The notes beneath the pieces are model-generated. The model searched no databases. It saw only the letters and a list, made by a program, of their open reading frames with translations, and was not told where the DNA came from. Source: Candidatus Uhrbacteria bacterium (GTDB lineage Bacteria > Patescibacteriota > Patescibacteriia > 2-12-FULL-60-25). Taken from it: a stretch of 64,000 bases of DNA. The position numbers were made by a program, and so were the translations under genes. Where the stretch lies: assembly GCA_021413945.1 (NCBI GenBank), contig JAIOPK010000006.1:1-64000 (forward strand). Reading direction: 5' to 3'. Below, piece by piece: positions 2,382-47,190 of this stretch; the stretch's first letter is position 1; every line of letters begins with the position of its first letter.

Positions 2382-2408
2382 TTGACAATTCTCCTAATGT
2401 ATGATGAT
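2382..2408 (+). promoter_or_regulatory. Promoter with TTGACA and GATGAT block
   Basis: TTGACA (2382-2387) is followed after 15 nt by GATGATCTT (2403-2411). The same two blocks with identical spacing occur at 22911-22940. With a 17-nt spacer the -10 would read TGATCT. The leader is about 90 nt. Confidence 0.5.
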
Positions 2409-2498
2409 CTTAACCGTCGCTTATCCGCCTAGGCGGAAGGCGATCGGTCTGCTCCTTCGAACCGAAAAGAGATGAAGGAAACAGAAAGGGAGTTCGCT

Positions 2499-28029: not shown

Positions 28030-29229
28030 ATGAAATATCGGTTCTTTCTCGCCTCGCTCCTCCTGTTTATCCCGCAGGTGGCGTTTGCGGCTAGCGCAGG
28101 ATTGTCGGCGCCCGCGGAGGTTCAAGTAGGTCGGACGTTTCAAGTCCGAATGAACATTGGCGGTGCCAAGGATACCGATACGGTACGATTTATCGGTTCT
28201 TTTCCTACGGAATTCCTTGAATTTCAGGGGATGGCTAATGGATCGTCCTTGCCGACGCGATCTCCCGGATCCGGTGCTTCTGGGGGAACCTTTAACTTCG
28301 GAGGATTCTCATTGGGAAATCCGGTGAGCGGAAATCAACTTGCGGGTATTTTGACATTTAAAGCAAAAAAAGTCGGAACAGCGACGATTTCACTTGTTGG
28401 GGGGACGCGTATTTTATCGGCAGGTACGGATCAGCTAACGGGGAAAGGGAGCGTGACGATTAAGATTGTGGAAGGCCCTGCGCCAGGCGAGATCCCGGTT
28501 AAACCTCCGGAGAAAACCACGATCGATCTTTTTAGTAATACACATCCCGACCAAGATGAGTGGTATTCATCGCGTGTATTGCATTTAGGGTGGAAATTGG
28601 GCGGGAAACAGCCGATTTCCGTAACCGTCGGCTTTGATCAAGCGCCGGAAGGTCCGGCGGAAACGAACGCCGTTTCTACGAGTAGCGCCATGTTTACGGC
28701 GCCGTCAGATGGTGTTTGGTACGGTCATTTAGTGTTGCGCTACTCGGCGAGCGATGTTGTACGAAAGGATTTCCGTTATCTCGTCGACGGAACGGCTCCG
28801 CGTCCGATGGCTGTGGCCGTCGATCAAACTGATGTACGTCCCGGAACACCAAATTATCTCCGTTTCGCAGCCCTGGATGATGCATCAGGTATCGAATCCT
28901 ACGAAATCAGCATTAATGATAAATTTGTAACGTCGACAAGCGAACAATCTTATTCGTTGATCGATTATCCGGCAGGGGAGTATCGCGTGAGTGTAAAAGC
29001 AAAGGATTTTGCCGGCAATGTTTCTCAAGGTGTAGCGGAATTCCGTTTGATCGAGGCAGGTCCTTCGCTTCCTACCGTCAGCCGTATTCAAACGATGCAA
29101 GAATGGCTGCTTCGTCTCGCATTAGCCTTCTTCATCGGCGTTCTCCTGTTTATTATCGGGTTTTTGATCGGGAAAAAGAAGAAGAAGGATGCAAAAGCCG
29201 CGCTCAAGAGTCGATCGAAGAAAAGTTAA
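28030..29229 (+). CDS. Membrane-anchored cohesin-like surface protein
   Basis: 399 residues. A signal peptide (FFLASLLLFIPQVAFA) precedes a domain at about 22-155 with the cohesin profile: an opening AEVQVGRTFQVRMNIGG, FPTEFLEFQGM, GTFNFGGFS and GILTFKAKKVGTATISLVGGT. Ig-like beta domains follow (about 165-350, with the FAALDDASGIESYEISINDK region). Near the C-terminus is one TM helix (LLRLALAFFIGVLLFIIGFLIG, about 360-381) and a Lys-rich cytoplasmic tail. The protein is thus fixed in the membrane and exposes the cohesin-like domain. It starts 11 nt after the dockerin gene, so both are one operon. No Shine-Dalgarno is seen. Cohesin identity is by pattern and context. Confidence 0.78.
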   Translation: MKYRFFLASLLLFIPQVAFAASAGLSAPAEVQVGRTFQVRMNIGGAKDTDTVRFIGSFPTEFLEFQGMANGSSLPTRSPGSGASGGTFNFGGFSLGNPVSGNQLAGILTFKAKKVGTATISLVGGTRILSAGTDQLTGKGSVTIKIVEGPAPGEIPVKPPEKTTIDLFSNTHPDQDEWYSSRVLHLGWKLGGKQPISVTVGFDQAPEGPAETNAVSTSSAMFTAPSDGVWYGHLVLRYSASDVVRKDFRYLVDGTAPRPMAVAVDQTDVRPGTPNYLRFAALDDASGIESYEISINDKFVTSTSEQSYSLIDYPAGEYRVSVKAKDFAGNVSQGVAEFRLIEAGPSLPTVSRIQTMQEWLLRLALAFFIGVLLFIIGFLIGKKKKKDAKAALKSRSKKS

Positions 29230-29318: not shown

Positions 29319-32300
29319 ATGAACCCACTTCGGGAAAATAATTACTACCGGCTTTTCCGCAAGAGTCTTGCGACGGTAGTAGCCCTTGTCCAGTTTTTAG
29401 GCATGGGCGTTTTTCCGAATCTCCCAACGCTTCCGTTTGAGTTTTTACAAGCAATTCCGGCACATGCGGCTATTCCGACAACGCTTGGTTATCAGGGGCG
29501 TTTGAAGAACTCATCGGGCACGGCGTTAACGGGTACGTATTCGTTTACATTCCGTTTGTATGCGGCTTCGAGTGGAGGTACTGCCATGTACACGGAAGTT
29601 CAGCCCTCGGTTTCCGTTGGTGAAGGCTTTTTCTCTGTCTTGCTCGGTTCGGTCACGCCTTTTCCGGCTGGATTTGATTTCAATCAACCGCTGTTTCTGA
29701 CGACGGAAGTGAACGGCGACGGTGAAATGACGCCGCGCATCACGATCAACAGCGTTCCGTACGCCTATACGGCCGGCGGAATCAATTCACAAGGTATCGC
29801 GCCCGTATCGGCATCCGGAGGAAGAATGTATTACAACACGACGGATGCTAGTTTAAATTATTACGACGGGAATGCATCGATGTGGGTGACGCTTGGAGCT
29901 TCGGCATCATCAACGAGTTTGCAGGCGGTTACCAACGTGGGGAATAGCACAACGAATCCGCTTATTTTTGGCGGCGGTACATCGACAGGGAACTTTGCCG
30001 CCATCGGTTATACGATTTCAGCCACAACCGGCACGTTTAGCAATCTTGTCATCAACGGCTCCGTACCTTCCTCGATCACGAACTTTATTTGGACCAATGC
30101 AACGGGTACCAACTCGACCTCGACAAATCTTTATACCGGCAATCTCGGCTTTAATGGCGCAACGGGAACCAATTTGCTGGCGACGGGATCGGTATCGACC
30201 ACGAATCTTTTTGCGAATATCGGTACGTTCGCCACGGCTACCGTCATGGGCCAGGCCATCTGTCTCTCGAACGGTGTCGGCTGTTCCTTTGCCGCCGCCG
30301 GTCTCGACACGCTGCAGTCCGTTTCCGCGAGAGGCGCGTTTACGACAACAACACTCTCGCTCTTTGGAGGAGCGAATGTTTCCACGCTGACGGTCACATC
30401 GACGCTCACCATCTCCGGAACTCTTTCGTCGGATTTAATTCCGACGACGGATCTTGCGTTTAGCCTGGGTAATTCCACGAATCGCTGGAACGGCAATTTT
30501 GGGAACACGACATCGACGAATTCCACATCAACAAATATTTACGCCACGAACGGTACTATTGTAAACTTTGCCGCCACGACCGCTACCATTACCAATTTGA
30601 CCGTGAACGGCACAACGCCCTCCACGTTTACCAACCTCATCTGGACCAATGCGACGGGTACCAACACGACTTCGACCAATTTGTTTGCGACGAATTTGTA
30701 CGGTACGAACTTTGGTTTCACGAATGCGACGGGAGGCTACATGCTCGCCACGACGGTTTCCACCACCAACCTCCTTGTCGGCGGTAACTTGGTTTGTCTC
30801 GCGAACGGCACCAACTGTCCTTCATCGACCGCTGCTAATTTCCAGACCGTGACAAATGCCGGCAACACCACGACCAATGCCATTCAGTTTGCCGGAGGAA
30901 CATCGACGGCTGACTTCGTCTTCAATACGAGCGCGACCGTCAACGGCATTCTGACATTTAACAACGCGACGGGCGCCACGATCACCGCCACGACAGGTAC
31001 CTTCACGAATCTTGTCGTGAACGGTTCCGTGCCTTCCTCCTTCACGAACCTCATTTGGACCAATGCAACCGGCACGAACACGACGTCGACAAATCTCTTC
31101 GCAACCAACCTGTTCTTCACCGGTGCGACCGGTACAAGTCTTGGTATCTCAGGCACCGGTTCATTTGGAACCGTCACATCGTCTAACCTCTTCGCCAACT
31201 TCGGCCAGTTCGCTTCCGCCACCGTAGCTGGACAGGGGATCTGTCTTCAGAACGGCGTCGGTTGTCCGAGCCAAGCAGCAGGACTCGATACGCTCCAGAG
31301 CGTCACCGCTCGCGGATCGTTTACGACGACCACCGTCTCCCTCTTTGGTGGCGCCAATGTTTCGACATTGACTGTCACCTCAACCCTCACCGTGTCCGGT
31401 ACGGTCTCCTCCGACTTCATTCCAACGACCGACCTCGCCTTCTCCCTCGGCAATGCAACGAACCGCTGGAACGGCTACTTTGGAAATACGACATCCACCA
31501 ACTCCACGTCGACGAATTTGTTTGCGACAAACGGAACGATCATCAACCTCACGGCAACCAACGGAACGATCACTTCTCTTCTCGCTACATCCGTCACAAC
31601 AACGAACTTCCTAGCAACTTCCGGCACGATCTCGAACCTCACATTCACGAATGCGACCGGCGTATTCATCACCGCGACAACTGGTACCTTCACCAACCTC
31701 GTCGTGAACGGCACAACGCCTTCATCGTTCACCAACCTCATCTGGACCAATGCGACGGGAACGAATACAACGTCGACCAATTTGTTTGCGACGAATTTGT
31801 ACGGAACCAACTTCGGTTTCACCAATGCCACCGGCGGATACATGCTCGCTACAACGGTTTCCACCACCAACCTACTCGTCGGTGGAAATCTCGTTTGTCT
31901 TGCGAACGGCACCAACTGTCCGAGCGGCACCTCGCCTAATTTCCAGACGGTTACGAATGCAGGCAACACGACCACGAACGCGATTCAGTTTGCCGGGGGA
32001 ACTTCTACGGCGGACTTTGTCTTCAATACGAGCGCGACGGTCAACGGTGTCCTCACGTTCAACAACGCCACCGGTGCAACGATCACCGCCACAACCGGTA
32101 CCTTCACGAATCTCGTCGTGAACGGTGCCGCTCCGTCCTCCTTCACGAACCTCGTCTGGACGAATGCCACAGGCACCAACACCACGTCGACCAATTTGTT
32201 TGCGACCAACCTCGGCTTCACCGGTGCGACCGGCGTGAACATTCTCGCCACGGGATCGGTTTCGACGACCAACCTTTTTGCTAACATCGGTACCTTTGCC

Positions 32301-35300
32301 ACAGCAACGGTCATGGGTCAGGCAATCTGTCTCCAGAATGGTGTTGGCTGTCCGAGCCAAGCAGCCGGCCTGGATACCCTCCAAAGCGTCACAGCTCGAG
32401 GCGCTTTCACCACAACGACGATCTCGCTCTTTGGTGGCGCCAACGTTTCGACGCTCACGGTCACCTCGACCCTCACTGTCTCCGGCACCGTCTCCTCCGA
32501 CTTTATTCCAACCACCGACCTCGCTTTCTCTCTCGGCAACGCCACTAATCGATGGAATGGCTACTTTGGAAACACGACGTCGACTAATTCCACGTCGACC
32601 AACTTGTTTGCGACGAATGGAACCATCATCAATCTCACTGCGACAAACGGCACGATCACCTCGCTCCTCGCGACATCCGTCACCACCACGAACTTCCTTG
32701 CGACGAGCGGCACGATCTCGAATCTTACATTCACGAACGCAACCGGCGTCTTCATCACCGCCACGACCGGTACCTTTACGAACCTCGTCGTGAATGGAAC
32801 GACACCTTCCAGCTTTACCAATCTTATTTGGACGAATGCGACCGGGACGAATACGACATCGACAAATCTATTTGCGACAAACTTGTTTGGTACAAATCTC
32901 GGCTTCACCAATGCGACCGGGGGATACATGCTCGCCACGACGGTCTCGACGACGAATTTGCTTGTTGGCGGCAATTTGGTTTGTCTCGCGAACGGCACCA
33001 ACTGTCCGAGCGGTACCTCGCCTAATTTCCAGACCGTGACGAACGCAGGCAACACCACGACCAATGCCATCCAGTTTGCCGGGGGAACATCGACGGCTGA
33101 CTTTGTCTTTAATACATCCGCCACGGTGAACGGCGTGCTGACGTTTAACAACGCGACGGGCGCCACGATCACCGCCACGACAGGTACCTTCACGAATCTT
33201 GTCGTGAACGGTTCCGTGCCTTCCTCCTACACGAACCTCATTTGGACCAATGCAACCGGCACGAACACGACGTCGACAAATCTCTTCGCAACCAACCTGT
33301 TCTTCACCGGTGCGACCGGTACAAGTCTTGGTATCTCAGACACCGGTTCCTTTGGAACAGTCACCTCGACCAATTTGTTCGCCAACTTCGGCCAGTTCGC
33401 CTCGGCCACGGTTGCCGGACAGGGGATCTGTCTCCAGAACGGCGTCGGTTGTCCGAGCCAGGCGGCAGGTCTCGATACCCTCCAATCCGTCACCGCTCGC
33501 GGATCGTTTACAACCACAACAATCTCTCTCTTTGGCGGTGCCAACGTCTCGACGCTTACCGTCACCTCGACCCTCACCGTCTCCGGCACCGTTTCCTCCG
33601 ATCTCATCCCAACGACCGATCTAGCCTTTTCACTCGGCAATTCGACGAATCGATGGAATGCTACGTTTGGCAACACAACCTCCACCAATTCCACGTCGAC
33701 GAACATTTACGCGACGAACGGCACGATCGTTAACTTCGCCGCCACAACGGCAACGATCACCAACCTCATCGTGAACGGCACGACACCTTCGACATTCACC
33801 AATCTCACTTGGACCAATGCCACCGGTACCAACACAACTTCGACCAACCTCTTCGCCACGAATCTCTTCTTCACCGGTGCCACTGGCACAAGCCTCGGTA
33901 TCTCGGGCACCGGCTCCTTTGGAACGGTCACATCGTCGAACCTCTTTACAAACTCCGCCACATTTGGAACCGCTACGATTTCAGGTCAGGCTGTCTGTCT
34001 CTTGGATGGCACAAACTGTTCCGCCGCGTTCCTCGACACCCTGCAGTCGGTAACGGCGCGCGGATCGTTTACGACGACGACGATGCAGTTCTTTGGAGGA
34101 TTTGTCGCGGCAAGCTCGAGCGTGACGGGTACGTTGAACGTTGCGGGAAGTTTGAATGTCACCGGGAATACGACGCTGAATGGAGCGACGATAACGAATG
34201 CGACGGCCACGAATGTCACAACGACGAATTTGTTTGCCGACAATGCCGCCTTCACGAATCTGACATTGTCGGGTGCTTTGACGGCCACAAACTTGACTTG
34301 GACCAACGCCACCGGAACGAACACGACGTCGACGAATCTCTTTGGAACGAATCTTGGCTTTACCGGAGCCACTGGCGTGAATATCCTCGCCACTGGAAGC
34401 GTCTCCACCACCAACCTCTTTGCAAACTTCGGTCAGTTCGCCTCGGCCACCATCGCCGGACAGGGGATCTGTCTCCAGAATGGCGTCGGTTGTCCGAGTC
34501 AGGCGGCAGGTCTCGACACCCTTCAGAGTGTCACCGCTCGCGGATCGTTCACGACGACCACCGTCTCTCTCTTTGGTGGTGCGAACGTCTCGACATTGAC
34601 GGTCACGTCGACACTCACTGTTTCCGGAACCGTCTCCTCCGATCTCATCCCCACGACGGACCTCGCTTTCTCTCTTGGCAATGCTACGAATCGCTGGAAC
34701 GGCTACTTTGGAAATACCACATCGACGAATTCAACCTCAACGAATGTCTACGCGACGAATGGCAACATTGTTAATTTGTCGAGCGCAACCGCCACGATTA
34801 GCAATCTTGTCGTGAACGGCACAACGCCTTCTACGTTTACGAACCTTATTTGGGTTAATGCGACCGGTACCAATACAACGTCAACAAATTTGTTTGCGAC
34901 GAATCTTGGATTTGAAACGGCTACGGGTACGACGCTGAATACCAACGTTCTGAACTTTGGGACGGGTAGTGCCGGATCATTGAGCGTGAATACGACGCTG
35001 ACATTGAACGGCGTGAATGTCTGTCTACAAGACAATACGAATTGTCCGTCGGTAGGCGGCAGTTCAAGCGACGGAAGCTGGGTGTACAACTCCTCGACAC
35101 AGCAGCTGTATCAAGTCACTTCTTCCTTGGATGTCTTGATCGGTGGATCAAGCGAACCGGGCTCGCCATTTGTCTTTCAGAATAATTCGACCACGAGCCG
35201 CCTGATTATTTCAGGAGGCATTTCTCCGGCGGATGTGACGATCGGTGCCAGTACGTCGAGTGGATTGAATTCCGCTTTCCAGCTTGATGGCGGCAACCTG

Positions 35301-38300
35301 TTTGTCGAGGGGAATATCGGATCGGTTTCATCTGTCTATACGAACGGTGCGTTTATCGCCGGAGGTACGGTGTACGCCGACGGCAGTATCAATAAGACGG
35401 ATGGCAACTTGATTTTGTCGGCATCCGGGGGTTTTATCACGCCGCCTGTCGATTTGTCTGTGAGCCTTGGTTCGTCGGCGCTGCGCTTTAACGGCTACTT
35501 TGGAAATACCACGTCGACCAACTCGACTTCTACGAACCTGTTTGCGACCAATGCGAATTTCACCAATCTGACCGTTTCCTCGTTCTCGCCAACCAATATT
35601 ACCTGGACCAACGCCACGGGTACCAATACAACGTCGACGAATCTCTTTGCCACCAATCTGTTCTTCACCGGCGCCACCGGTACGAGCCTTGGTATCACCG
35701 GCACTGGCTCCTTTGGAACAGTTACATCGTCGAACGTCTTTGCTAACTTTGCCCAATTCGCTTCGGCTACCGTTGCCGGACAGGGGATCTGTCTTCAAAA
35801 CGGTGTTGGTTGTCCGGCCTTCACGTCTGCTGAAGTCGACACCCTCCAATCCGTCACAGCACGAGGTGCCTTCACCACCACCACGCTTTCCCTCTTTGGC
35901 GGCGCAAACGTTTCTACTCTCACCGTCACGTCGACTCTGACTGTCTCCGGCACCGTCTCCTCCGACTTCATTCCGACGACCGATCTCGCGTTTTCGCTCG
36001 GGAATGCCACCAACCGATGGAATGGCTACTTTGGAAACACGACGTCGACCAACTCAACATCGACGAATATCTTTGCCACGAACGGTCTCTTCAACAATGT
36101 GACGGCTACAACCGGAACCTTTACTAATCTTGTTGTTAGCGGACCATCATCGTTTACGAATCTGACCTGGACCAATGCGACGGGCACGAACACGACATCG
36201 ACGAATTTGTTTGCGACGAATCTTTTCTTCACCGGTGCAACTGGTACAAGCCTAGGTATCTCCGGAACCGGTTCATTTGGAACAGCGACCGCTACAAATA
36301 TCTTTGCGAACTTTGGTCAGTTCGCCTCGGCTACGGTCGCAGGGCAGGGGATCTGTCTTCAGAACGGCGTTGGTTGTCCGAGCCAGGCCGGTCTCGACAC
36401 GTTGCAATCCGTCACCGCTCGCGGATCGTTTACCACAACGACCGTTGAGTTCTTTGGAGGATTTGTTGCCGCTTCATCGAGCGTGACGGGTACGTTCGCA
36501 GGACTTGGAAATATCGTCCTTGGCAATGAAACGACCGATGCGATTACGGTCGGAGGCCGCTTCAGTTCCGATCTTGTTCCGACAACAGACCTTGCTAACT
36601 CGCTCGGTATCGCCACCAATCGCTGGAACGCCTATTTTGGAAACACGACATCGACCAATTCAACGAGTACGAATATCTTTGCGACCAACGGATTGTTTAC
36701 CAATGTTACCGCTACGACCGGTACCTTCACTAACCTTGTCGTAAGCGGCCCTTCCAACTTCACAAATATCACGTGGGTGAATGCGACAGGTACTAACACA
36801 ACCTCAACAAATTCCTACGCAACCAACCTGTTCTTCACCGGTGCGACCGGTACAAGCCTCGGTATTTCCGGCACGGGCTCCTTTGGAACAGTGACGTCGT
36901 CGAACCTCTTTGCCAACTTCGGCCAGTTCGCCTCAGCCACCGTCGCCGGACAGGGGATCTGTCTCCAGAACGGTGTTGGTTGCCCAGCTTCCAATGCTAT
37001 TGAGGTCGACACTCTTCAGACTGTGACGGCTCGCGGTGCTTTCACGACGACGACGTTGTCCCTCTTTGGAGGATTTGTCGCCGCATCATCGAGTGTTACA
37101 TCTACCTTTGCCGCGCTTGGAAACATTGCGCTTGGCAATGAAACGACCGATGCGATTACGGTCGGCGGACGATTTAGCTCGGATCTTGTTCCGACAACGG
37201 ATCTTGCTAATTCGCTCGGCAATGCCACTAATCGTTGGAACGGTTACTTCGGCAACACGACATCGACTAATTCCACGTCGACGAATATCTTTGCGACCAA
37301 TGGTTTATTCACCAACGTAACGGCAACGACTGGAACATTCACGAACCTTGTCGTGAGCGGCCCGTCATCGTTTACGAATCTGACCTGGACCAATGCAACG
37401 GGTACAAACACAACGTCGACGAACATGTTCGCGACAAATCTGTTCTTCACCGGCGCCACAGGCACGAGCCTCGGTATCTCCGGTACCGGCTCATTCGGAA
37501 CGGTCACCTCGACCAATTTGTTTGCCAACTTCGGTCAGTTCGCCTCGGCCACGGTTGCCGGACAGGGGATTTGTCTCCAGAACGGTATCGGTTGTCCGAG
37601 CCAAGCAGCCGGCCTCGACACATTGCAGAGCGTGACGGCACGCGGATCGTTTACGACGACCACTGCCCAATTCTTTGGAGGATTTGTTGCGGCGAGCTCG
37701 AGTGTCACAGGAACCTTTGCCGGACTCGGCAACATTACCCTCGGCAATGACACGGCCGATGCTATCACCGTCGGCGGTCGCTTTAGCTCGGATCTTGTTC
37801 CGACGACCGACCTCGCTAACTCGCTCGGTATCGCCACCAACCGATGGAATGGTTACTTTGGGAATACGACATCGACCAACTCCACATCGACGAATCTCTT
37901 TGCGACGAACGGTTTCTTCACGAATCTCACGGCAACCACCGCTACGATCACCAACCTCGTCGTGAACGGCACAACGCCTGCCGCCTTCACGAACATCACG
38001 TGGACCAATGCGACGGGCGTGAATACGACGAGTACGAATTTGTTCGCGACGAACCTCTTTTATACGGGTGCCACCGGTACCAATCTTGCCTCGACCGGAC
38101 TGTTCACGTTCTCGACTGCAACGGGAACGACCATCCGTGCAAATACCGGCAACTTTGGTCAGTTCACATCTAATAACGTCACGATCGGCGGTGGAACGAT
38201 TAACAATACGAGTATCGGAGCAACCACGCCTTCCACCGGTGTCTTTACGCATACAACGACGACGAATCTCTGGGTTACTGGCAACGTCTATTCAAACTTG

Positions 38301-41300
38301 ATCCCGATTACGGACCTCGGCTTCACGCTCGGCAACGCTACGAATCGCTGGAATGGTTACTTCGGTAATACAACATCGACCAACTCAACGTCGACCAACT
38401 TCTTTGCGACGAATGGTTATTTCACCAATTTGACAGCCTCCTCGTTTGCACCGACCAACTTGACTTGGACGAATGCGACAGGCATCAACACAACCTCGAC
38501 CAATTTGTTCGCAACGAACTTGTTCTTCACAGGAGCTACAGGTACGAGTCTCGGTATCACCGGCACCGGCTCATTCGGAACAGTCACTTCGACCAACCTG
38601 TTTGCTAACTTCGGCCAGTTCGCTTCCGCCACCGTTGCCGGACAGGGGATTTGTTTGCAGAACGGTATCGGTTGTCCGAGCTTCACCGCGACAGAAACGG
38701 ATACGCTCCTTACCGTTTCCAACCGCGGTGCCGTTGCGACATCGACGCTGACATTGTTTGGAGGCTTCGTCGCGGCTTCCTCGAGCGTGACGGGAACACT
38801 GCGTGTTGCCGGCGCGTTGACCGTGACCGGGGCTTCGTCCTTGCAAGGCTTTACCTTCACGAATGGAACAGGAACAAACGTTACGAGCACGAACGCTTTT
38901 ATCACCAACCTCGGCTTCCTCGGCGCTACCGGTACAACGTTACAAACCAGCGTCTACGTCTCCTCCTCCAACCTCTTTGCCAACTTTGGCCAGTTCGCCT
39001 CGGCCACCGTCGCCGGACAGGGGATCTGTTTGCAGAATGGTGTTGGTTGTCCTGTATCGGCCGGTCTCGACACGCTTCAGAGCGTGACGGCCCGCGGGTC
39101 GTTTACGACCACAACTGCCCAGTTCTTTGGAGGATTTACCGCCGCGAGCTCGTCTGTGACGGGCACGCTTACCGTTGCCGGCGCGCTGACCGTGACGGGC
39201 GCATCTTCCTTACAAGGTTTTACCTTCACGAATGGAACGGGAACAAATGTTACGAGTACGAATATTGCCGCAACAGGCTTGCTGACGTTTGGAACGGCGA
39301 CAGGTACAAGTTTGTTTGTCACCGGTCTCTCGCGTTTGGATGGGACGACGATGATGAATGCGACAGCGACCAATGTGACGTCTACCGGCATGTACGGCTC
39401 GTACCTTGGTTTCCTCGGCGCTACTGGTACCACTCTTCAGACGAGCGTATACGTCTCCTCATCTAACCTCTTCGCTAACTTCGGCCAGTTCGCCTCGGCG
39501 ACCGTCGCCGGACAGGGGATTTGTCTCCAGAACGGCGTTGGTTGTCCGGCCTCGGGAGCAGCCAGTCTTGAAACATTGTTAACCGTTTCAAATCGCGGAT
39601 CCATCGCCACTTCCACCCTCACTCTCTTTGGTGGATTCGTGGCCGCTTCCTCGAGCGTGACGGGAACGCTGCGTGTTGTTGGTAACTTTATTACAACCGC
39701 GTCTTCATCGCTTGCGGCATTTACCTTTACCAATACGACCGGTACGAATCTCTACTTGGCCGGCAATGTCTTCTCCAATCTCATCCCTTCAACCGACCTT
39801 GCGTTCTCGCTTGGTAATGACACGAACCGCTGGAATGCGACATTCGGCAATGTTACCGCCACCAATGTCACGACAACAAATTTGACCGTCACCGGGAACT
39901 TCTCCGTTTCCAGTACGCAACTGCAAATGAATAACCAAGGCAATCCCTTTGGTTCCGCGTTGCTTGCCGGTGCATTCATCGATCAAAACTCCGCCATTTT
40001 GGAAGAATTCAGCAAAATGCAGACCTCTAAATCCGTGGATACGACAGGTGCTGGTAACGCCGGCTTTGGAGATGGTGGAGGTTGGGGTGTCTATGAAGGT
40101 TCTGTTTGTACATTTTCCTCTCCGAATGACGCGGCCGGCGGTATCGTGAACATTTCCGCAAACAGTGCCGGGAACGGTTGTCTCATGATGCTCGATGAAG
40201 CCGCGAATGATATTCGTGGCATTCTTGATGCGGACTTTTTGCCTGTGATCTATACGAAGGTACAGCCTTCGGTGACGAGCAGTCGAAACTATATTTTCGT
40301 CGGTGCAGGCAATGCGACCGACGGAGCCGTTGTGACATCGACCAACTTTATCGGGTTTACTAACGGAGGCGACAAGATTTGGCAGGGAGTCACCATTTCC
40401 GGAGGAACGGCCACACTTGTGCCTTGTACCGGACTTTCAATCCCGACGTCCACGTATTCCCTTCTCCTTGTAGAAGTACGTTCTACAACCTCCGTACGTT
40501 TCAGCGTCGATACGGATCCGACAGATGGCGTCAACATGACTGTTTGCGGCACGGCGACGACAAATATTCCGACGATCCCGCTCGCACCCCAGTTCCAGTA
40601 TCAGGTGAGAACGGGAGGTACGGTGGGTTCGCTGAACGTGGACTTCTTCCGTGCATGGCAGGATGACCCGCCGGGCGGCGGCAGTGAAGGCCTAGGTGCG
40701 GCTTCCAATAATTTTGTGACTCGTTCCGCGCTTGTCCAGGAATTCCCGGCCGACAACTTGGACTTGGAATCGGGAACGGTCGTATCCATCGATACGTCGA
40801 CGACGACGATGCGTGCCATGCCGTCCAACATCGGGTATGACCCGAATTTCCTTGGAGTCGTGGTTAATAGCGCTGACCCGGGCCTCATTCTGTCCAACGG
40901 TTCCTTTGAAGGTATTCGTGTCGCGACACAGGGTCGCGTGTACGCAACGGTTTCCAACGAAAACGGAGATATCGTGGCAGGCGACGTCTTGACCACAGCC
41001 GCCTCCAATACGGGTGCGCTTATGAAGGCTACGGGTCCCGGCCCTTCCATCGGAAAAGCGTTGAGTAGCTTCACGAGCGCTACGAGCTCGGCTACAGGCA
41101 CGGCGCTTGTCATCATCCAACCGATGTATTACACGCCTTCGTCAAACGGCGTCTATGACAGGCTCCGCGCTGTCGGTTACTTGTCTGTCGGCGACAGCGA
41201 AGCACCTGCCGTCGGTGCCTCCGCCATCGCTCAATTTGCCGCTACGACAGATGCCTATCTCCAGATCAACCTCCAGAACTTCTCGACAGGCACCAGTGCC

Positions 41301-43793
41301 TCGGGGGATTATGTGGTGACGGCAGACAATGGTGATGACTCCAGCTATTTCATCGACATGGGTATCAATGGATCGAATTATGCGAATCCGGATTATTCCA
41401 TCGGGGGACCCAATGACGGTTATCTGTATGTGAATGGCGGTGATCTGGCACTAGGTACCGCGAGCTCGGCAGATATTCTCTTCCACACCGGCGGAACGCT
41501 TGTGGAAAATGAGCGCATGCGGGTCACGTCGGACGGACGTGTCGGTATCGGAACATCCGCACCTTCATCGACCTTGCATGTGGTCGGGGATACGACCCTG
41601 GATACGCTTGCGTTCACCGATGCGACGGGTACAAGTCTCAACTTGATTGCCTCGTTGAACGTCGGAGGAGATCTCACTGTGACCGGCAGTACTACTCTGC
41701 AGAATGTCACGGCCGTCAATGCGGTGTTTACGGGTGTTACGACAACCAACCTCGCCGTTACCGGACTGGTTTCCGTCGCTGATCTGACCGTTGGCGGAAA
41801 GCGCGTTTGTTTGGAAGATGGAACCAACTGTTCGATCGGGGCAACCAAGAGCGCGTCTTCTTCTGCCTCGGTTTCCGTCGGTGCGGAAACGGAATTGCTG
41901 GTCGTTACAACGACGCCATCCTTTGTCTCAAACGCGGTATGGATTTCCGCCGATGCGCGCGCCGCCAACGCCGATGGCTCCGCGTCGTCGACCGTGACTC
42001 TGCGCATCCGCCGAGGCGATACGTGTTTGAGCGGTGTTCAAGTCGGCGTCGATCGAACGGTAGAGGTCGGAGCCGCCGATTCCGATACGATTTCGACGAG
42101 CTTTGTCGATAGCCCCGCTACGACAAACGCTACGGCATACCGCTTGTGTGCTCTCGGCTCCGGTGGAACGCCGACCGTGACCAACCGATCGATGATGGTC
42201 CAGCTCATCAAACAGGGTGCCGACTTGGGTGAAGTCTATTACACGTCCGATCACAGCATCGATCCAGGAACCGTCGTTTCCATTGATGCCAGCGGAGAAG
42301 CGCTCGTACAGAAGTCCGGTCAGGCTTACGACGACAAGGTGCTCGGTATCATTTCCACGCGCCCGGGTCTTTTGCTTGCGGAACAGCCTAAGGCCGATGG
42401 AACACCGGTCATTGTCGCGCTTTCCGGCCGCGTTCCCGTGAAGGTCACGACGAGCAACGGCAAGATTGAAGCGGGGGATTATCTGACGGCTTCACCGGTT
42501 GCCGGAGTTGCCATGAAGGCAACTAAGGCCGGATTCGTGATCGGTCAGGCCCTGATGCCGTACGATGCCGATGAGGATGGAGAAGTCGTCGTGTTTATCA
42601 AGAACGGCATGTGGAATGGCCAGGTTGTAGCGGAAATGCGTTCCGGTACGGGTCGCTCAGTGCTCATGAGTACGTTGAATGCAGTTGCTTCCGTCAACCA
42701 GGCCACATCGACAGCTTCTGTCATGTCGCTCGATCGTCTTGTCGCGAGCGGAGACGTGGTGGCCGCATCGCTTGTTTCGCAGGATTTGTCCGTGCAGATG
42801 ATCGAGGCATTGAACGGATCGCTGACGATGCAGATCGGAGCGACGGGTACTTGGTCGCTTGTGTCGGAGGGCTCGTCCTCGTCCATCATGACAATTGATG
42901 CGAGCGGTATCCTCGATTTGAACGGTACGTTGATCGCAAGCCATGTCAGCTCGACTCGTATGACGACGGATCAGTTGATTGCCATCGACATCCAGTCGCC
43001 GGTGATTGATGCGATGCGCGAGGCTCTTGGAACTTCCTCTAGTACGGTTACCGACCTCGCGAATCGCGCAACAGAGATGACCAACCGACTCTTAGATGTC
43101 GAGAATCGTTTGAGTGTATTAACGGAGACGGCAAGCTCGACGGCGATGGGCCTCGATGTCGACCAGCTCCGCGTCGCACAAGGCTTGGAGGTCCAAGGCG
43201 AGATCCGCGCTCCTGGTGGGTTGCGCGTCGATCGTCTCTCGAGTATCGCCGATCTTCTGACGATCGCAACGGACATTGAAATGACGGGATCGATCACGGT
43301 TAACAAGGACACGGCCGGATTCGCAGTCATCAAGACGGGTATGCGACGTATGCGTATCACGTTCGATCGTCCGTATGTGGTCATGCCGGTGGTACAGTTG
43401 AGCGTGAACTTCAAACAGTTGGAAGATGAAGAGCTTGGACAAGAGGAATTGCGTATTCAGAACTACTTTGATCAGAACATGCGATATGTCGTGACGCATG
43501 TCACCAAGGAAGGATTCGATATTCTCCTCGACAAGCAGGCACAGCAAGATGTGCGATTCAGCTGGATCGCTTTGGCACCTAAGAACGCGGAGGAGCTCAT
43601 CTCGCAGGAAATCCTTGGAGCTACTCCTGAACCGGCCCCCGAGCCTGCTCCTGCACCAGCACCAGAGCCAACGCCGGAGCCGGTACCCGAACCGACTCCC
43701 GAACCGACTCCCGCTCCTGAACCGGCCCCCGAGCCCGCTCCTGCGCCAGCACCAGAGCCCGCTCCTGCGCCAGCTCCCGAACCAGCCCCGTAA
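29319..43793 (+). CDS. Giant (4,824-residue) repetitive fibre-like surface protein
   Basis: N-terminus: a long signal-like hydrophobic segment (about 15-45) and a beta domain (about 52-150; YQGRLKNSSGTALTGTYSFTFRLY). About residues 195-3530 are Thr/Asn/Ser-rich tandem repeats built from phrases such as ATGTNTTSTNLFATN and NATNRWNGYFGNTTSTNST. DTLQSVTARG-type unit heads occur 13 times, and a C-x6-C loop (CLQNGVGC) 18 times in all. A ConA/LamG-like beta domain may lie at about 3550-3785. Next come two related beta modules (about 3800-3950 and 4290-4400), VGIGTSAPSSTLHV (about 4075) as in phage-tail-like fibres, a short coiled coil (about 4570-4605), a terminal beta domain and a Pro/Glu/Ala tail (about 4770-4824). 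No C-terminal TM helix is seen. It probably forms a long, possibly trimeric, surface fibre; attachment is unknown. Confidence 0.8.
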   Translation: MNPLRENNYYRLFRKSLATVVALVQFLGMGVFPNLPTLPFEFLQAIPAHAAIPTTLGYQGRLKNSSGTALTGTYSFTFRLYAASSGGTAMYTEVQPSVSVGEGFFSVLLGSVTPFPAGFDFNQPLFLTTEVNGDGEMTPRITINSVPYAYTAGGINSQGIAPVSASGGRMYYNTTDASLNYYDGNASMWVTLGASASSTSLQAVTNVGNSTTNPLIFGGGTSTGNFAAIGYTISATTGTFSNLVINGSVPSSITNFIWTNATGTNSTSTNLYTGNLGFNGATGTNLLATGSVSTTNLFANIGTFATATVMGQAICLSNGVGCSFAAAGLDTLQSVSARGAFTTTTLSLFGGANVSTLTVTSTLTISGTLSSDLIPTTDLAFSLGNSTNRWNGNFGNTTSTNSTSTNIYATNGTIVNFAATTATITNLTVNGTTPSTFTNLIWTNATGTNTTSTNLFATNLYGTNFGFTNATGGYMLATTVSTTNLLVGGNLVCLANGTNCPSSTAANFQTVTNAGNTTTNAIQFAGGTSTADFVFNTSATVNGILTFNNATGATITATTGTFTNLVVNGSVPSSFTNLIWTNATGTNTTSTNLFATNLFFTGATGTSLGISGTGSFGTVTSSNLFANFGQFASATVAGQGICLQNGVGCPSQAAGLDTLQSVTARGSFTTTTVSLFGGANVSTLTVTSTLTVSGTVSSDFIPTTDLAFSLGNATNRWNGYFGNTTSTNSTSTNLFATNGTIINLTATNGTITSLLATSVTTTNFLATSGTISNLTFTNATGVFITATTGTFTNLVVNGTTPSSFTNLIWTNATGTNTTSTNLFATNLYGTNFGFTNATGGYMLATTVSTTNLLVGGNLVCLANGTNCPSGTSPNFQTVTNAGNTTTNAIQFAGGTSTADFVFNTSATVNGVLTFNNATGATITATTGTFTNLVVNGAAPSSFTNLVWTNATGTNTTSTNLFATNLGFTGATGVNILATGSVSTTNLFANIGTFATATVMGQAICLQNGVGCPSQAAGLDTLQSVTARGAFTTTTISLFGGANVSTLTVTSTLTVSGTVSSDFIPTTDLAFSLGNATNRWNGYFGNTTSTNSTSTNLFATNGTIINLTATNGTITSLLATSVTTTNFLATSGTISNLTFTNATGVFITATTGTFTNLVVNGTTPSSFTNLIWTNATGTNTTSTNLFATNLFGTNLGFTNATGGYMLATTVSTTNLLVGGNLVCLANGTNCPSGTSPNFQTVTNAGNTTTNAIQFAGGTSTADFVFNTSATVNGVLTFNNATGATITATTGTFTNLVVNGSVPSSYTNLIWTNATGTNTTSTNLFATNLFFTGATGTSLGISDTGSFGTVTSTNLFANFGQFASATVAGQGICLQNGVGCPSQAAGLDTLQSVTARGSFTTTTISLFGGANVSTLTVTSTLTVSGTVSSDLIPTTDLAFSLGNSTNRWNATFGNTTSTNSTSTNIYATNGTIVNFAATTATITNLIVNGTTPSTFTNLTWTNATGTNTTSTNLFATNLFFTGATGTSLGISGTGSFGTVTSSNLFTNSATFGTATISGQAVCLLDGTNCSAAFLDTLQSVTARGSFTTTTMQFFGGFVAASSSVTGTLNVAGSLNVTGNTTLNGATITNATATNVTTTNLFADNAAFTNLTLSGALTATNLTWTNATGTNTTSTNLFGTNLGFTGATGVNILATGSVSTTNLFANFGQFASATIAGQGICLQNGVGCPSQAAGLDTLQSVTARGSFTTTTVSLFGGANVSTLTVTSTLTVSGTVSSDLIPTTDLAFSLGNATNRWNGYFGNTTSTNSTSTNVYATNGNIVNLSSATATISNLVVNGTTPSTFTNLIWVNATGTNTTSTNLFATNLGFETATGTTLNTNVLNFGTGSAGSLSVNTTLTLNGVNVCLQDNTNCPSVGGSSSDGSWVYNSSTQQLYQVTSSLDVLIGGSSEPGSPFVFQNNSTTSRLIISGGISPADVTIGASTSSGLNSAFQLDGGNLFVEGNIGSVSSVYTNGAFIAGGTVYADGSINKTDGNLILSASGGFITPPVDLSVSLGSSALRFNGYFGNTTSTNSTSTNLFATNANFTNLTVSSFSPTNITWTNATGTNTTSTNLFATNLFFTGATGTSLGITGTGSFGTVTSSNVFANFAQFASATVAGQGICLQNGVGCPAFTSAEVDTLQSVTARGAFTTTTLSLFGGANVSTLTVTSTLTVSGTVSSDFIPTTDLAFSLGNATNRWNGYFGNTTSTNSTSTNIFATNGLFNNVTATTGTFTNLVVSGPSSFTNLTWTNATGTNTTSTNLFATNLFFTGATGTSLGISGTGSFGTATATNIFANFGQFASATVAGQGICLQNGVGCPSQAGLDTLQSVTARGSFTTTTVEFFGGFVAASSSVTGTFAGLGNIVLGNETTDAITVGGRFSSDLVPTTDLANSLGIATNRWNAYFGNTTSTNSTSTNIFATNGLFTNVTATTGTFTNLVVSGPSNFTNITWVNATGTNTTSTNSYATNLFFTGATGTSLGISGTGSFGTVTSSNLFANFGQFASATVAGQGICLQNGVGCPASNAIEVDTLQTVTARGAFTTTTLSLFGGFVAASSSVTSTFAALGNIALGNETTDAITVGGRFSSDLVPTTDLANSLGNATNRWNGYFGNTTSTNSTSTNIFATNGLFTNVTATTGTFTNLVVSGPSSFTNLTWTNATGTNTTSTNMFATNLFFTGATGTSLGISGTGSFGTVTSTNLFANFGQFASATVAGQGICLQNGIGCPSQAAGLDTLQSVTARGSFTTTTAQFFGGFVAASSSVTGTFAGLGNITLGNDTADAITVGGRFSSDLVPTTDLANSLGIATNRWNGYFGNTTSTNSTSTNLFATNGFFTNLTATTATITNLVVNGTTPAAFTNITWTNATGVNTTSTNLFATNLFYTGATGTNLASTGLFTFSTATGTTIRANTGNFGQFTSNNVTIGGGTINNTSIGATTPSTGVFTHTTTTNLWVTGNVYSNLIPITDLGFTLGNATNRWNGYFGNTTSTNSTSTNFFATNGYFTNLTASSFAPTNLTWTNATGINTTSTNLFATNLFFTGATGTSLGITGTGSFGTVTSTNLFANFGQFASATVAGQGICLQNGIGCPSFTATETDTLLTVSNRGAVATSTLTLFGGFVAASSSVTGTLRVAGALTVTGASSLQGFTFTNGTGTNVTSTNAFITNLGFLGATGTTLQTSVYVSSSNLFANFGQFASATVAGQGICLQNGVGCPVSAGLDTLQSVTARGSFTTTTAQFFGGFTAASSSVTGTLTVAGALTVTGASSLQGFTFTNGTGTNVTSTNIAATGLLTFGTATGTSLFVTGLSRLDGTTMMNATATNVTSTGMYGSYLGFLGATGTTLQTSVYVSSSNLFANFGQFASATVAGQGICLQNGVGCPASGAASLETLLTVSNRGSIATSTLTLFGGFVAASSSVTGTLRVVGNFITTASSSLAAFTFTNTTGTNLYLAGNVFSNLIPSTDLAFSLGNDTNRWNATFGNVTATNVTTTNLTVTGNFSVSSTQLQMNNQGNPFGSALLAGAFIDQNSAILEEFSKMQTSKSVDTTGAGNAGFGDGGGWGVYEGSVCTFSSPNDAAGGIVNISANSAGNGCLMMLDEAANDIRGILDADFLPVIYTKVQPSVTSSRNYIFVGAGNATDGAVVTSTNFIGFTNGGDKIWQGVTISGGTATLVPCTGLSIPTSTYSLLLVEVRSTTSVRFSVDTDPTDGVNMTVCGTATTNIPTIPLAPQFQYQVRTGGTVGSLNVDFFRAWQDDPPGGGSEGLGAASNNFVTRSALVQEFPADNLDLESGTVVSIDTSTTTMRAMPSNIGYDPNFLGVVVNSADPGLILSNGSFEGIRVATQGRVYATVSNENGDIVAGDVLTTAASNTGALMKATGPGPSIGKALSSFTSATSSATGTALVIIQPMYYTPSSNGVYDRLRAVGYLSVGDSEAPAVGASAIAQFAATTDAYLQINLQNFSTGTSASGDYVVTADNGDDSSYFIDMGINGSNYANPDYSIGGPNDGYLYVNGGDLALGTASSADILFHTGGTLVENERMRVTSDGRVGIGTSAPSSTLHVVGDTTLDTLAFTDATGTSLNLIASLNVGGDLTVTGSTTLQNVTAVNAVFTGVTTTNLAVTGLVSVADLTVGGKRVCLEDGTNCSIGATKSASSSASVSVGAETELLVVTTTPSFVSNAVWISADARAANADGSASSTVTLRIRRGDTCLSGVQVGVDRTVEVGAADSDTISTSFVDSPATTNATAYRLCALGSGGTPTVTNRSMMVQLIKQGADLGEVYYTSDHSIDPGTVVSIDASGEALVQKSGQAYDDKVLGIISTRPGLLLAEQPKADGTPVIVALSGRVPVKVTTSNGKIEAGDYLTASPVAGVAMKATKAGFVIGQALMPYDADEDGEVVVFIKNGMWNGQVVAEMRSGTGRSVLMSTLNAVASVNQATSTASVMSLDRLVASGDVVAASLVSQDLSVQMIEALNGSLTMQIGATGTWSLVSEGSSSSIMTIDASGILDLNGTLIASHVSSTRMTTDQLIAIDIQSPVIDAMREALGTSSSTVTDLANRATEMTNRLLDVENRLSVLTETASSTAMGLDVDQLRVAQGLEVQGEIRAPGGLRVDRLSSIADLLTIATDIEMTGSITVNKDTAGFAVIKTGMRRMRITFDRPYVVMPVVQLSVNFKQLEDEELGQEELRIQNYFDQNMRYVVTHVTKEGFDILLDKQAQQDVRFSWIALAPKNAEELISQEILGATPEPAPEPAPAPAPEPTPEPVPEPTPEPTPAPEPAPEPAPAPAPEPAPAPAPEPAP
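30957..31162 (+). repeat. Near-identical block, copy 1
   Basis: 206 bp matching 33144-33349 with two differences (offset 2,187 nt), much closer than other units. Confidence 0.85.
33144..33349 (+). repeat. Near-identical block, copy 2
   Basis: Partner of 30957-31162; the two base changes alter F to Y and G to D. Confidence 0.85.
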
Positions 43794-43842: not shown

Positions 43843-44619
43843 ATGATTAAGCGCACATCTGCGTCCAGAACAAAGAAAGTCGTCATGGAAGAGCCCATGG
43901 TGTCGACGACGACCACCCCTCCAAAGGGGACCGGTACTTCGCGGGCAATTCCGATTGTGATCGCCCTGGTTTTGGTCGTTGGAGGAGTCGGTTATTTCGT
44001 GAATGCGGCCATGAAAGGGAAGACGAGTGCCGATGTTACGCAGGGACAAATCGGAGAAGGTGTTAACGCCGAGGAAGTGAACAAGACGATTGAGCGAGTT
44101 CGTTCATTAACCGTCACAACAGCCGATGAGTTTCCGACGGTAGCGACGATTCAGAATATTTCGATTTTGCGCCCACAGAACCCGACGCTGTATCGCGATG
44201 CGGAGAATGGCGACAAGCTGCTTGTTTGGTCGGACAAGGTCGTGGTGTATTCCGCGAACAAGGATCGCTTGCTCGTTGTGATGCCGATCAATATCCCGCC
44301 GACGGTGTCCGCACCCGTTGCCGCAGCAACAGTAACGGAAGAGCCAACGGTGACGCTTGAAGTAAGAAACGGTTCGGCGACGCTTGGCGTCGCGCGCGTC
44401 CTCAGTGAAAAATTAAAGGGCGAAGGATTCAAAACATTAGCTCCGGGTGATGCAAAGAATAAATTATATGCGTCGACGGTGATCTATAATGCCACCGGAA
44501 AAACGATTCCAAATACGCTCGAGAAACTGGTTGCGTCGACCGGAGGAACGGTCGTAGATTCTCTTGAAGGGGAGAGGGAAAGCAAAGCGGACCTGTTGAT
44601 AATTGTTGGAGGAAAATAA
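43843..44619 (+). CDS. Membrane protein with LytR C-terminal (LytR_C) domain
   Basis: 258 residues. A short cytoplasmic N-terminus with Ser/Thr/Pro is followed by one TM helix (AIPIVIALVLVVGGVGYFVNAA, about 35-56) and an outside part. The region 165-258 reads as LytR_C: TVTLEVRNGSATLGVARVLSEKL, EGFKTLAPGDAKNK, STVIYN, and KADLLIIVGGK at the end. LytR_C accompanies LCP-type enzymes that attach glycopolymers to peptidoglycan, but also occurs alone as here; the LCP catalytic domain is absent. It lies 49 nt after the giant gene with its own TGT-TATACT promoter, and a terminator follows. A role at the cell wall is likely. Confidence 0.8.
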   Translation: MIKRTSASRTKKVVMEEPMVSTTTTPPKGTGTSRAIPIVIALVLVVGGVGYFVNAAMKGKTSADVTQGQIGEGVNAEEVNKTIERVRSLTVTTADEFPTVATIQNISILRPQNPTLYRDAENGDKLLVWSDKVVVYSANKDRLLVVMPINIPPTVSAPVAAATVTEEPTVTLEVRNGSATLGVARVLSEKLKGEGFKTLAPGDAKNKLYASTVIYNATGKTIPNTLEKLVASTGGTVVDSLEGERESKADLLIIVGGK

Positions 44620-44778: not shown

Positions 44779-47190
44779 ATGAAACGCGCCTTTCCATTTT
44801 TACTCGCCATTCTCGTCGCCACTCCGTGGCCGCTTTTGGCGCAGGCCGCCGTTTCACGTTCTTCTTATAATATTTCTATCGTTTCGGTTAATGCGCCCAA
44901 GGCGTTGACGCCGGGTGCACGTGGTGAGATCACGGTCGAGGCAAGGAATACGGGGAGCGCCTCATGGACCCGTACAGGAACGAATTTTGTTTCCATCTAT
45001 TCTTACGATCCGATCAAGAAGCAGGAAGTCGGTAGCGTTTTTTATACAAGCGGATGGGATGCTCCTACGCGTCCTGCACGACTGCCGGTAGAACAAGTAA
45101 AACCGGGAGAAACAGCGACGTTCCGTTTTCCTATCGTCGCACCCTCCAAGCTCGGTTCGTATACGGCGGAGTTTGTGGTCGTCGTCGAAGGTTTAGTACG
45201 ACTTAGTAATGGACGTTTTAACGTCACGGTAAACTCGTCCAATTCTGCCGCGTCCGTACCCGTGGCCGCGCCTGCCGTCTCCGCTCCTGCGCCCGTATCA
45301 ACGCTGGCGCCGACCGGAATGCCGACGGGATCGAGTAAATACGCAGCGCAGTATGTTTCCGGTGTAGCTCCGAGCTGGCAGATCGAGCTCGATCAAAATG
45401 TGATTGCTGAAATCGCTTATAAGAATACGGGTACGGAGACATGGAAGCGTGATGAAGGCGCATTTGTGTCTTTATATGCCGTTGAAGGAGGAGCGAGCGG
45501 TAGCAAGGAGCGCACGAGTTCATTTCAGGATCAAAGCTGGACGGGTGCGCGTGCGGCAAAAATGGTGGAGTCGGAGGTGAAGCCGGGTTCGATCGGACAC
45601 TTTAAAGTCGAGCTGCGTGCCAAAACCCCGGGGGATTATCGCGAGGAGTTTCTTCTTTCCGCGGAGAACATTGCATGGATGGCGGATAGCAGAATCTTTT
45701 TGAATATCAAGGTGCCGACGAATGGTTCATATATTGCACGCAATATTATTGCGCCATCTAATACGATTTCCGCAACCCAAGCTGCTATAAACGCCGGTTA
45801 TAGCGCGCTTCTTATGCTTCGTTCGACGCAGAGCGTCTCGACTTCCGGTAACGGTCGCATGCAGTTGACCGTTGGTTTCAAGAACACGGGCACCAAAGCT
45901 TGGGGGAATCGGAGTTTGCAGGTGCGCGGAGTCACGGCGGCGACAACGGCGATCGCCAAGTATGCCAGTGTTCGTGATGATTCTTGGCGCGAGGGATCGA
46001 CGCCGGTGAAAGTGGAAGGATTGACCAAACCGGGCGAACTTGGATTGCTCACCTTCACAGTGAAGGCTCCGGCCAAGAAGGGTGAATATAGGGCGAGCTT
46101 CCAGATGTATGCGGACAACCAGCCCGTCGACGGCGGTATCATCGATATTCCGATTACGGTGACGGCAGACGGTTATATCGAGCCGGAGCCTGTTCCCGCC
46201 AAGCCGATTCCGACGGTCACGACGCCGACCCCTGCTCCGTCGAACCCGACGCCTAACGCGATTCCGAGTTTGAATCCTCAGCCGTTGAATGGCGATGTCG
46301 CGAGTCTGCCAAATGAGCCTTTGATGCGCGTCGGTATCTTTGCGACCACGGATGATAAGATGACGATTCGTGCCAAGTATGCGCCGCTTGAGGTTCGCAA
46401 CGGTTCATCGGTTGTTTGTACGCTTCCGGTTGGCCAGAGCGTTATCGTTACGTATGACCGCAGCAGCTCGATCTACCGTATTGCCGGCGATTGTCCGGCG
46501 GCTCAGTCATCGACCTATTATGTTGTGAAAGCACAGGATGGTTTGTCGCCGATGGAAATGAGCGACTTTAGCCGACCGGTCGGTTGGCTTCCGGGCGCCA
46601 ATGATAATACGTTCCGCGCGCATCTTGAGCTCCGCTGGTCGCCGACCGTGAGCCAGGCTTGGGTGATTAACGAATTACCGATTGAATGGTATTTGAAGGG
46701 GATCGCAGAAACGTCGAATGTCAGCCCGATGCAGTATCAGCGCACGCTCCTCGTCGCCGCTCGAACGTACGCGATGTATCACGTACAGCGTCAGACCAAG
46801 CACGCGTCTAAGTTCTTCATCGTCGATGCGACCTATGACCAGGTGTATCGCGGTTATGGTCAGGAAGCTCGCAGTCCGACCATTGTTGCCGCTGTTGATG
46901 CGACGCGCGGTCAGATTGTTACCTATCAGGGCAAGTTAGCACTTACGCCGTATTTCTCTCGCTCAGACGGTCGCACACGATCTTGGGGTGAAGTCTGGTA
47001 TGGCCAATCGAATTATCCGTGGCTTGTCTCGGTTCCGGTGCCGGATGATGTCGGTAAGACATTGTGGGGCCATGGCGTCGGTATGTCGGCCACGGGCGCA
47101 CTTCAGATGGATGCCAAGTGGGGGAAGACGTACGATCAGATCCTTGCACACTTTTATACGGGGACGGAACTACGTCGGGTCTACAAATAA
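44779..47190 (+). CDS. Secreted protein with Ig-like domains and SpoIID/LytB domain
   Basis: 803 residues. A signal peptide (FPFLLAILVATPWPLLAQA) is followed by three NBR1-like/Ig-like domains (about 30-155, 185-310 and 335-465), each with a W-x-R or W-x-N centre, a conserved PG turn (VKPGETATFRF, VKPGSIGHFKV, TKPGELGLLTF) and a closing strand. A Pro-rich linker (about 470-505) leads to a beta region and the SpoIID/LytB domain (about 625-803): LPIEWYLKGIAE, RTLLVAARTYAMYH, GQIVTYQGKLALTPYFS, and WGHGVGMSATGALQMD. SpoIID-type domains are lytic transglycosylases on denuded glycan, or amidase enhancers. It closes the surface locus and may remodel peptidoglycan for it. Confidence 0.85.
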   Translation: MKRAFPFLLAILVATPWPLLAQAAVSRSSYNISIVSVNAPKALTPGARGEITVEARNTGSASWTRTGTNFVSIYSYDPIKKQEVGSVFYTSGWDAPTRPARLPVEQVKPGETATFRFPIVAPSKLGSYTAEFVVVVEGLVRLSNGRFNVTVNSSNSAASVPVAAPAVSAPAPVSTLAPTGMPTGSSKYAAQYVSGVAPSWQIELDQNVIAEIAYKNTGTETWKRDEGAFVSLYAVEGGASGSKERTSSFQDQSWTGARAAKMVESEVKPGSIGHFKVELRAKTPGDYREEFLLSAENIAWMADSRIFLNIKVPTNGSYIARNIIAPSNTISATQAAINAGYSALLMLRSTQSVSTSGNGRMQLTVGFKNTGTKAWGNRSLQVRGVTAATTAIAKYASVRDDSWREGSTPVKVEGLTKPGELGLLTFTVKAPAKKGEYRASFQMYADNQPVDGGIIDIPITVTADGYIEPEPVPAKPIPTVTTPTPAPSNPTPNAIPSLNPQPLNGDVASLPNEPLMRVGIFATTDDKMTIRAKYAPLEVRNGSSVVCTLPVGQSVIVTYDRSSSIYRIAGDCPAAQSSTYYVVKAQDGLSPMEMSDFSRPVGWLPGANDNTFRAHLELRWSPTVSQAWVINELPIEWYLKGIAETSNVSPMQYQRTLLVAARTYAMYHVQRQTKHASKFFIVDATYDQVYRGYGQEARSPTIVAAVDATRGQIVTYQGKLALTPYFSRSDGRTRSWGEVWYGQSNYPWLVSVPVPDDVGKTLWGHGVGMSATGALQMDAKWGKTYDQILAHFYTGTELRRVYK

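Follow-up and report, generated by a model that had tools for sequence, protein, structure and literature searches.

How Patescibacteria recognise and hold their partner cells is largely an open question. For Saccharibacteria, type IV pili and predicted adhesins are discussed in the available part of one account (PMC11665869). In the Absconditicoccaceae, also Patescibacteria, very large proteins (>1,500 aa) have a predicted surface location and a proposed role in host contact; their own domains are of the fibronectin III, fibrinogen C, concanavalin A and integrin types, and the accessible portion of that description mentions neither a G2 domain nor a fibre plan (PMC13059738). A closer parallel in architecture is offered by the MAT fibres of Bdellovibrio bacteriovorus. 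As set out in the available sections of that study, trimeric fibres built on much the same plan serve in prey recognition; a signal peptide is followed by a conserved beta-rich domain and then by a long shaft like that of phage fibres, one subgroup has a self-cleaving phage chaperone domain, the C-terminal folds are adhesive, and several members occur per genome (PMC10769870). Two further systems are relevant to single domains, namely the preneck appendage gp12 of phage phi29 (3GQH, 3SUC; PF11962) and the H-type lectins, among them Helix pomatia agglutinin and discoidin (PF09458). A literature search, with most subscription papers outside its reach, found no publication describing the fibre family presented here.

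The protein studied here, of 4,824 aa, is encoded at 29319..43793 of the window, by which we mean the whole 64,000-nt stretch of DNA that was analysed; this gene and all features given below lie on the + strand. It resembles the MAT fibres in its signal peptide, the conserved domain directly after it, the long shaft, the phage chaperone-type domain, the adhesive type of C-terminal fold and the presence of several members per genome. It differs from them, as far as the accessible text describes them, in carrying G2 domains of the phi29 gp12 type rather than S74, an H-type lectin fold, a Pro/Glu tail and cohesin/dockerin neighbours, and in the length of its family members, 976 to at least 5,918 aa versus about 1,000 (PMC10769870). 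The N-terminal domains of the two groups are alike in position, directly after the signal peptide. A whole-protein Pfam scan gave no S74 match at E ≤1; where the available MAT text asks for S74 or another adhesive C-terminal fold, the giant has the H-lectin fold. By analogy, then, the giant appears to work like a MAT fibre, although on present tests it is not classifiable as one.

Taking these features together, we consider it fairly probable that the protein is a secreted giant adhesive fibre, probably homotrimeric and G2-processed, that recognises or attaches to other cells or extracellular polymers. Its most likely role, judged by comparison with the Bdellovibrio fibres, would be recognition, and on balance we favour it. 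The protein is a good candidate device by which an ultrasmall bacterium, a relative of Candidatus Uhrbacteria, could reach and hold other microbes. If this is true, phage-spike-type adhesive fibres extend from predatory bacteria to this phylum, at unusual length. The question of partner contact also becomes open to small, specific tests, since the family is widespread and offers a recognisable self-cleavage domain together with two named residues, a lectin domain and a conserved gene cassette.

Domain plan from signal peptide to tail

The first 50 residues (29319..29468) read as a signal peptide ending in an AHA|A site of the signal-peptidase I type, and comparable A-x-A sites in relatives stand immediately before the same conserved N-terminal domain. 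This domain, of 'YQGRL' type (residues 51–156, ~106 aa; 29469..29786), is defined by profile matches and alignment; it has no PDB match and nothing convincing in Pfam. Signal peptide and N-terminal domain would together place the base of the fibre at the cell envelope.

The repetitive Thr/Asn/Gly/Ser shaft that follows (residues ~160–3515, ~3,350 residues; 29796..39863) is delineated by motif counts and by selection. All the DTLQSVTARG-type motifs of the protein (13) lie in it, and so do all but one of the 18 C-x6-C pairs; both totals are those counted in the first-pass annotation. Thr (18.7%), Gly (11.3%), Ser (10.2%), Ala (9.7%) and Asn (9.1%) dominate the composition of the whole protein. 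A shaft of this kind would form a long fibre, rich in beta structure and probably homotrimeric. Scaled from the ~550 Å of the MAT fibre Bd3182, its length would be roughly 0.3 µm. One shaft unit, modelled as a monomer with 29 aligned copies, comes out extended (mean pLDDT 68.5, pTM 0.39), with strands confined to two short hairpins just before the C-x6-C loops, and without a fold match in the PDB. The predicted structure is compatible with an interchain beta fibre; it could also mean disorder or a flexible chain. Hydrophobic residues in the shaft show periodicities of about 5 and 2.5, which we set aside because the repeats alone produce such peaks.

The cysteine loops had been proposed to be disulfide-stabilised turns in a beta fibre. 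Shuffled versions of the protein contain on average 0.36 C-x6-C pairs and at most 3 (1,000 trials). The motif is found family-wide: the 23 other family ORFs hold 56 pairs against 1.4 expected, and 112 of their 251 cysteines lie within them. The genome that carries the gene (below, the host genome) has one DsbB and four matches to Thioredoxin_4 (DsbA-like) but no VKOR; proteins could thus be folded oxidatively outside the cytoplasm. In light of the shared motif and these genes, disulfide-stabilised turns are plausible, no more.

Beyond the shaft and the first of two G2 domains lies a phage-tail-fibre-like segment (residues 3954–4096; 41178..41606), identified by family matches and by tblastn to cyanophage and other tail fibre genes. 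It includes VGIGTSAPSSTLHV, the phage-tail-like sequence picked out at first sight, which occurs once, at residue 4075. The coiled coil suggested at the same time is partly supported: a helix is predicted at residues ~4561–4598 (42999..43112), though at low confidence only. The Pro-rich tail is indeed there, as a Pro/Glu/Ala-rich C-terminus (43581..43790) with 40% P and 19% E and with no LPXTG or membrane segment. Neither LPxTG nor a long hydrophobic run occurs in the 20 family tails examined; two relatives have NPxTG in their tails, with no hydrophobic run after it. Within the giant protein itself no anchor was found, and the YadA-type C-terminal membrane-anchor domain had no Pfam match at E ≤1 across the whole protein. 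Matches of the whole protein to Trypan_PARP, weak NCBIfam matches and four PDB matches were rejected, as they lie in the low-complexity tail or far below cut-off.

G2 domains, lectin domain and the fibre family

A profile built from 36 G2 copies of the family matches phi29 gp12 in the PDB with an E of 4.7e-5, and the match begins exactly at D692, the first residue of 3GQH. We take D692 and E695 to be the catalytic residues of gp12; in the 3SUC chain ('pre-mature' gp12), Q stands at the position of the conserved E. The equivalent D in column 1 and E in column 4 are both present in 33 of the 36 copies. In the giant, the first G2 domain (residues 3805–3938; 40731..41132; profile, alignment) has A-L-V-Q in place of D-x-x-E and, since both D and E are lost, is predicted to be catalytically inactive. 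The second, G2b (residues 4302–4432; 42222..42614; profile, alignment, model), keeps the motif intact as DLGE. Both copies have D and E in G002, a genome of the same genus. Scanned singly against Pfam PF11962 (Peptidase_G2), G2b scores 19.2 bits, under the cut-off of 25, and 9 of the 36 G2 members match this family at E ≤0.1, the best at 3.7e-7.

The AlphaFold model of residues 4298–4758 has a mean pLDDT of 67.2 and exceeds 90 over most of G2b. The best PDB match of the G2b model by Foldseek is 3SUC (E 2.8e-4); superposition on 3GQH gives Z 13.7 and an rmsd of 2.7 over 112 residues, and on 3SUC Z 13.6, followed by phage capsid decoration-type proteins at Z 9–13. G2b is homologous, in sequence and fold, to the self-cleaving C-terminal domain of phi29 gp12. 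The first-pass annotation saw the phage-like features of the protein but overlooked these two domains of the phi29 gp12 self-cleavage type. Giant and gp12 have in common the G2 fold, the equivalents of D692 and E695, and a position behind a fibre or spike. They differ in that the giant is a secreted cellular protein with two G2 copies, the first lacking both residues, and with ~390 more residues, the lectin included, after the second. G2 domains are also encoded by large phages of Agrobacterium, Sinorhizobium and Pseudomonas and by Campylobacter phages, at 31–42% identity and mostly annotated as hypothetical; those of jumbo phages have 38–42% identity.

As homologues of an intramolecular chaperone/protease, both G2 domains may promote folding of the trimer. 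G2b, with D4302 and E4305 intact, probably cuts its own chain once, after assembly, at 4301|4302 (A|D; 42219..42224), a bond located by equating profile position 1 with D692 of gp12; likeness of fold alone is no proof of cleavage. Such a cut would leave the lectin on the last 523 residues, released or held non-covalently, and is for this reason a poor fit with a tip adhesin.

The lectin-like domain that had been raised as a possibility is real. Scanned alone, this H-type lectin domain (residues 4664–4754; 43308..43580) scores 31.0 bits against H_lectin PF09458, passing the curated cut-off of 24; within the whole-protein scan it scores 18.6, below the cut-off. Among the 20 members of the lectin alignment, 9 match PF09458 at E ≤0.1. 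The lectin profile has no significant match among PDB sequences (best E 0.26). The domain model resembles discoidin II (Z 7.8), Helix pomatia agglutinin (Z 6.5) and the C-terminal domains of phage tailspikes (about Z 6–7), and these resemblances of a predicted fold are moderate, all with Z below 8. With H-type lectins the domain shares sequence score and fold; unlike them, it is part of a giant fibre protein, close to its C-terminus. The phage-tail-like character first noted for the protein extends to its C-terminal domains, which match phage appendage and tailspike as well as H-type lectin folds. Coiled coil and lectin might form a trimeric sugar-binding tip, or else a releasable chaperone-tip piece; the tip would bind glycans of the partner cell.

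The family comprises 24 ORFs: the window protein and 23 others of at least 400 aa with >33% T/S/N/G, from 18 regions of the host genome and of related genomes. G2 domains and the lectin-like domain are each found in 21 of the 24. The N-terminal domain is present in 11, and in 11 of the 13 whose 5′ end is covered; the two 5′-complete ORFs without it are a 471-aa dockerin protein and an ORF that is apparently frameshifted. Several ORFs run off the ends of contigs or regions, so their lengths, 5,918 aa among them, are minimum values. The shafts differ among members and the ends are constant, which suggests exchangeable shafts between fixed ends. We also observed a giant with AIGYxALxxNTTG shaft repeats (L023 2-14164), which we take to be YadA-head-like, and another with a different repeat module (L037 1-5607), presumably YVTN-like.

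The C-terminal part is matched in 45 of the 96 genomes searched as relatives, and matches to the G2 profile occur in 71 of the 192 genomes sampled from the phylum. Part of these phylum-level matches lie only in ORFs of ~200–350 aa (E about 1e-11 to 1e-21, covering part of the profile), perhaps a separate family. When named genomes were searched with the N-terminal domain, 17 loci were found. Six are titled Candidatus Uhrbacteria, with the closest matches among them; the other 11 are from three unclassified Patescibacteria, a Woesebacteria and seven MAGs, titled Planctomycetales, Ignavibacteriae/Ignavibacteria (three), Omnitrophota, Neomarinimicrobiota and one 'bacterium'. The host genome has four family members, jointly about 3.4% of the genome. 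Three of them, paralogous giants of 3,110, 1,830 and about 2,142 aa, lie clustered on contig C12 (L020 4658-19563, L021 1-6108); their N-terminal domains are nearly identical. The description of the protein as the repetitive fibre of a CPR cell is supported, the closest named relatives of its N-terminal domain being Candidatus Uhrbacteria, but that description passed over the family-wide spread, the cluster of paralogues and the cassette of cohesin-like and dockerin-like genes. The giant is real and under selection, a probable surface fibre whose family is spread widely in Patescibacteria.

A different function for such a surface protein would be structural, as a sheath, stalk or S-layer-like coat of the envelope or matrix that is cleaved by G2 for assembly and binds no cell specifically. 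Its length, its T/N-rich shaft, the lack of an anchor of its own, the four family members in the genome and the wall-type neighbours LytR_C and SpoIID would all suit this role. Nevertheless, 21 of the 24 family ORFs carry an H-type-lectin-like domain, which suggests that the terminus serves in binding, and lengths that range so widely among relatives (976 to ≥5,918 aa) would be odd for a coat. We regard a purely structural role as rather unlikely.

The cohesin-like/dockerin-like cassette

Directly upstream of the giant gene are genes for a secreted dockerin-like protein of 249 aa (27269..28018) and for a cohesin-like and Ig-like protein of 399 aa with a C-terminal membrane anchor (28030..29229), both of them conserved neighbours. 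In the window both domains score below their cut-offs (Dockerin_1 18.2 bits, cut-off 22.9; Cohesin 15.1 bits, cut-off 24.1), and the cohesin-like protein has no sequence match in the PDB. Their orthologues score above them: the dockerin orthologue in L030 reaches 33.7 bits, and the cohesin orthologues in L036 and L030 reach 30.3 and 24.5 bits. Directly downstream lies the gene for a LytR_C-domain protein of 258 aa (43843..44619; domain match), and beyond it that for an Ig-like and SpoIID cell-wall-type protein of 803 aa (44779..47190), a neighbour kept in the two same-genus genomes. LytR_C homologues follow the giant at seven loci of relatives (L028 to L033 and L036).

Eight dockerin-like/cohesin-like pairs were found in genomes of the bacterial family to which the window belongs (G000, G001, G013, G014, G022, G026 and, twice, G027). 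Seven lie directly upstream of a giant ORF that carries the N-terminal domain; the remaining one is cut off by the end of its contig. The order differs in G068, of the same class, where the giant comes first and the dockerin-like protein and the cohesin-like gene come after it. The link is not a strict one: G002, rated 100% complete, has the giant but yielded neither a cohesin-like nor a dockerin-like match, and in G048 two pairs occur with no giant in the stretches read.

With a membrane-anchored partner next door, the cohesin-like and dockerin-like proteins may hold the fibre at the surface; retention could also be through the N-terminal domain. It has to be asked whether the pair instead marks a cellulosome-like scaffold, holding extracellular hydrolases on polymers, with the lectin as its carbohydrate-binding module. 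The adjacent cohesin-like and dockerin-like genes and the H-lectin domain are what such a scaffold would have. However, neither a cohesin nor a dockerin domain was detected in the giant protein, and the ten neighbour proteins scanned include no polysaccharide hydrolase, the wall-type SpoIID protein aside, which makes a scaffold quite improbable. To our knowledge, cellulosomes are not known in the phylum Patescibacteria. Returning to the adhesive fibre, we tentatively suggest a fuller scheme, possible rather than likely, in which a giant trimeric fibre of the phage-spike type is mounted on an ultrasmall bacterium by a non-cellulosomal cohesin–dockerin pair. Two stacked G2 domains, one catalytically dead and one live, would set the timing of fibre assembly and of one self-cut, by which the tip is exposed or released. 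With its shafts exchangeable, this plan would then be a main partner-contact device of many Patescibacteria.

Integrity of the giant gene

The gene is one uninterrupted frame of 4,824 codons, exactly as first counted, and takes up 22.6% of the window. Its repeats raise the concern that length and repeat number are wrong, the repeats having been collapsed or expanded in assembly. Such genes are indeed hard to assemble, as seen from the breaks at contig ends in the sister genomes G001 and G013. Here, however, the gene is internal to a contig of 563,635 bp in a host genome of 1,050,475 bp and 23 contigs, and the longest exact DNA repeat inside it is 110 bp. We compared 12 shaft units, delimited by DTLQ motifs, in gapped alignments. 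Their median identity is 0.70 for protein and 0.66 for DNA; pairs reach at most 94% protein identity, yet differ at 42–79% of synonymous sites, near saturation. With five of the 66 pairs excluded for infinite synonymous distance, the remaining 61 have a median dN/dS of 0.13, which indicates strong purifying selection between units. Near-saturated synonymous divergence together with so short a longest repeat implies that the units are old rather than a fresh or mis-assembled duplication. The array has been maintained independently by selection on the protein; an assembly artefact is unlikely, and we give very little weight to a wrong length or repeat number.

That the gene belongs to a phage or prophage tail fibre lodged in the chromosome is scarcely credible: the G2 domain, the VGIGT segment and the lectin fold all have known counterparts in phage fibres and tailspikes, and jumbo phages encode G2 at 38–42% identity, but the protein has a signal peptide and no PHROG match, its neighbours are cellular (Wzx-like flippase, LytR_C, SpoIID, ClpP), the locus is conserved across relatives, and scans of viral contigs for the N-terminal domain and for G2b relatives, both limited by short back-translated patterns, confirmed none.

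In the sister genomes the start and end of the orthologous giant are on separate contigs (L058, L059 with L029, L031; G001 C70/C81, G013 C1/C3), and giant genes broken in this way may be under-reported in MAGs. Finally, GC skew falls to about -0.2 within the shaft (window 30001-34000), presumably from C-rich Thr and Asn codons.
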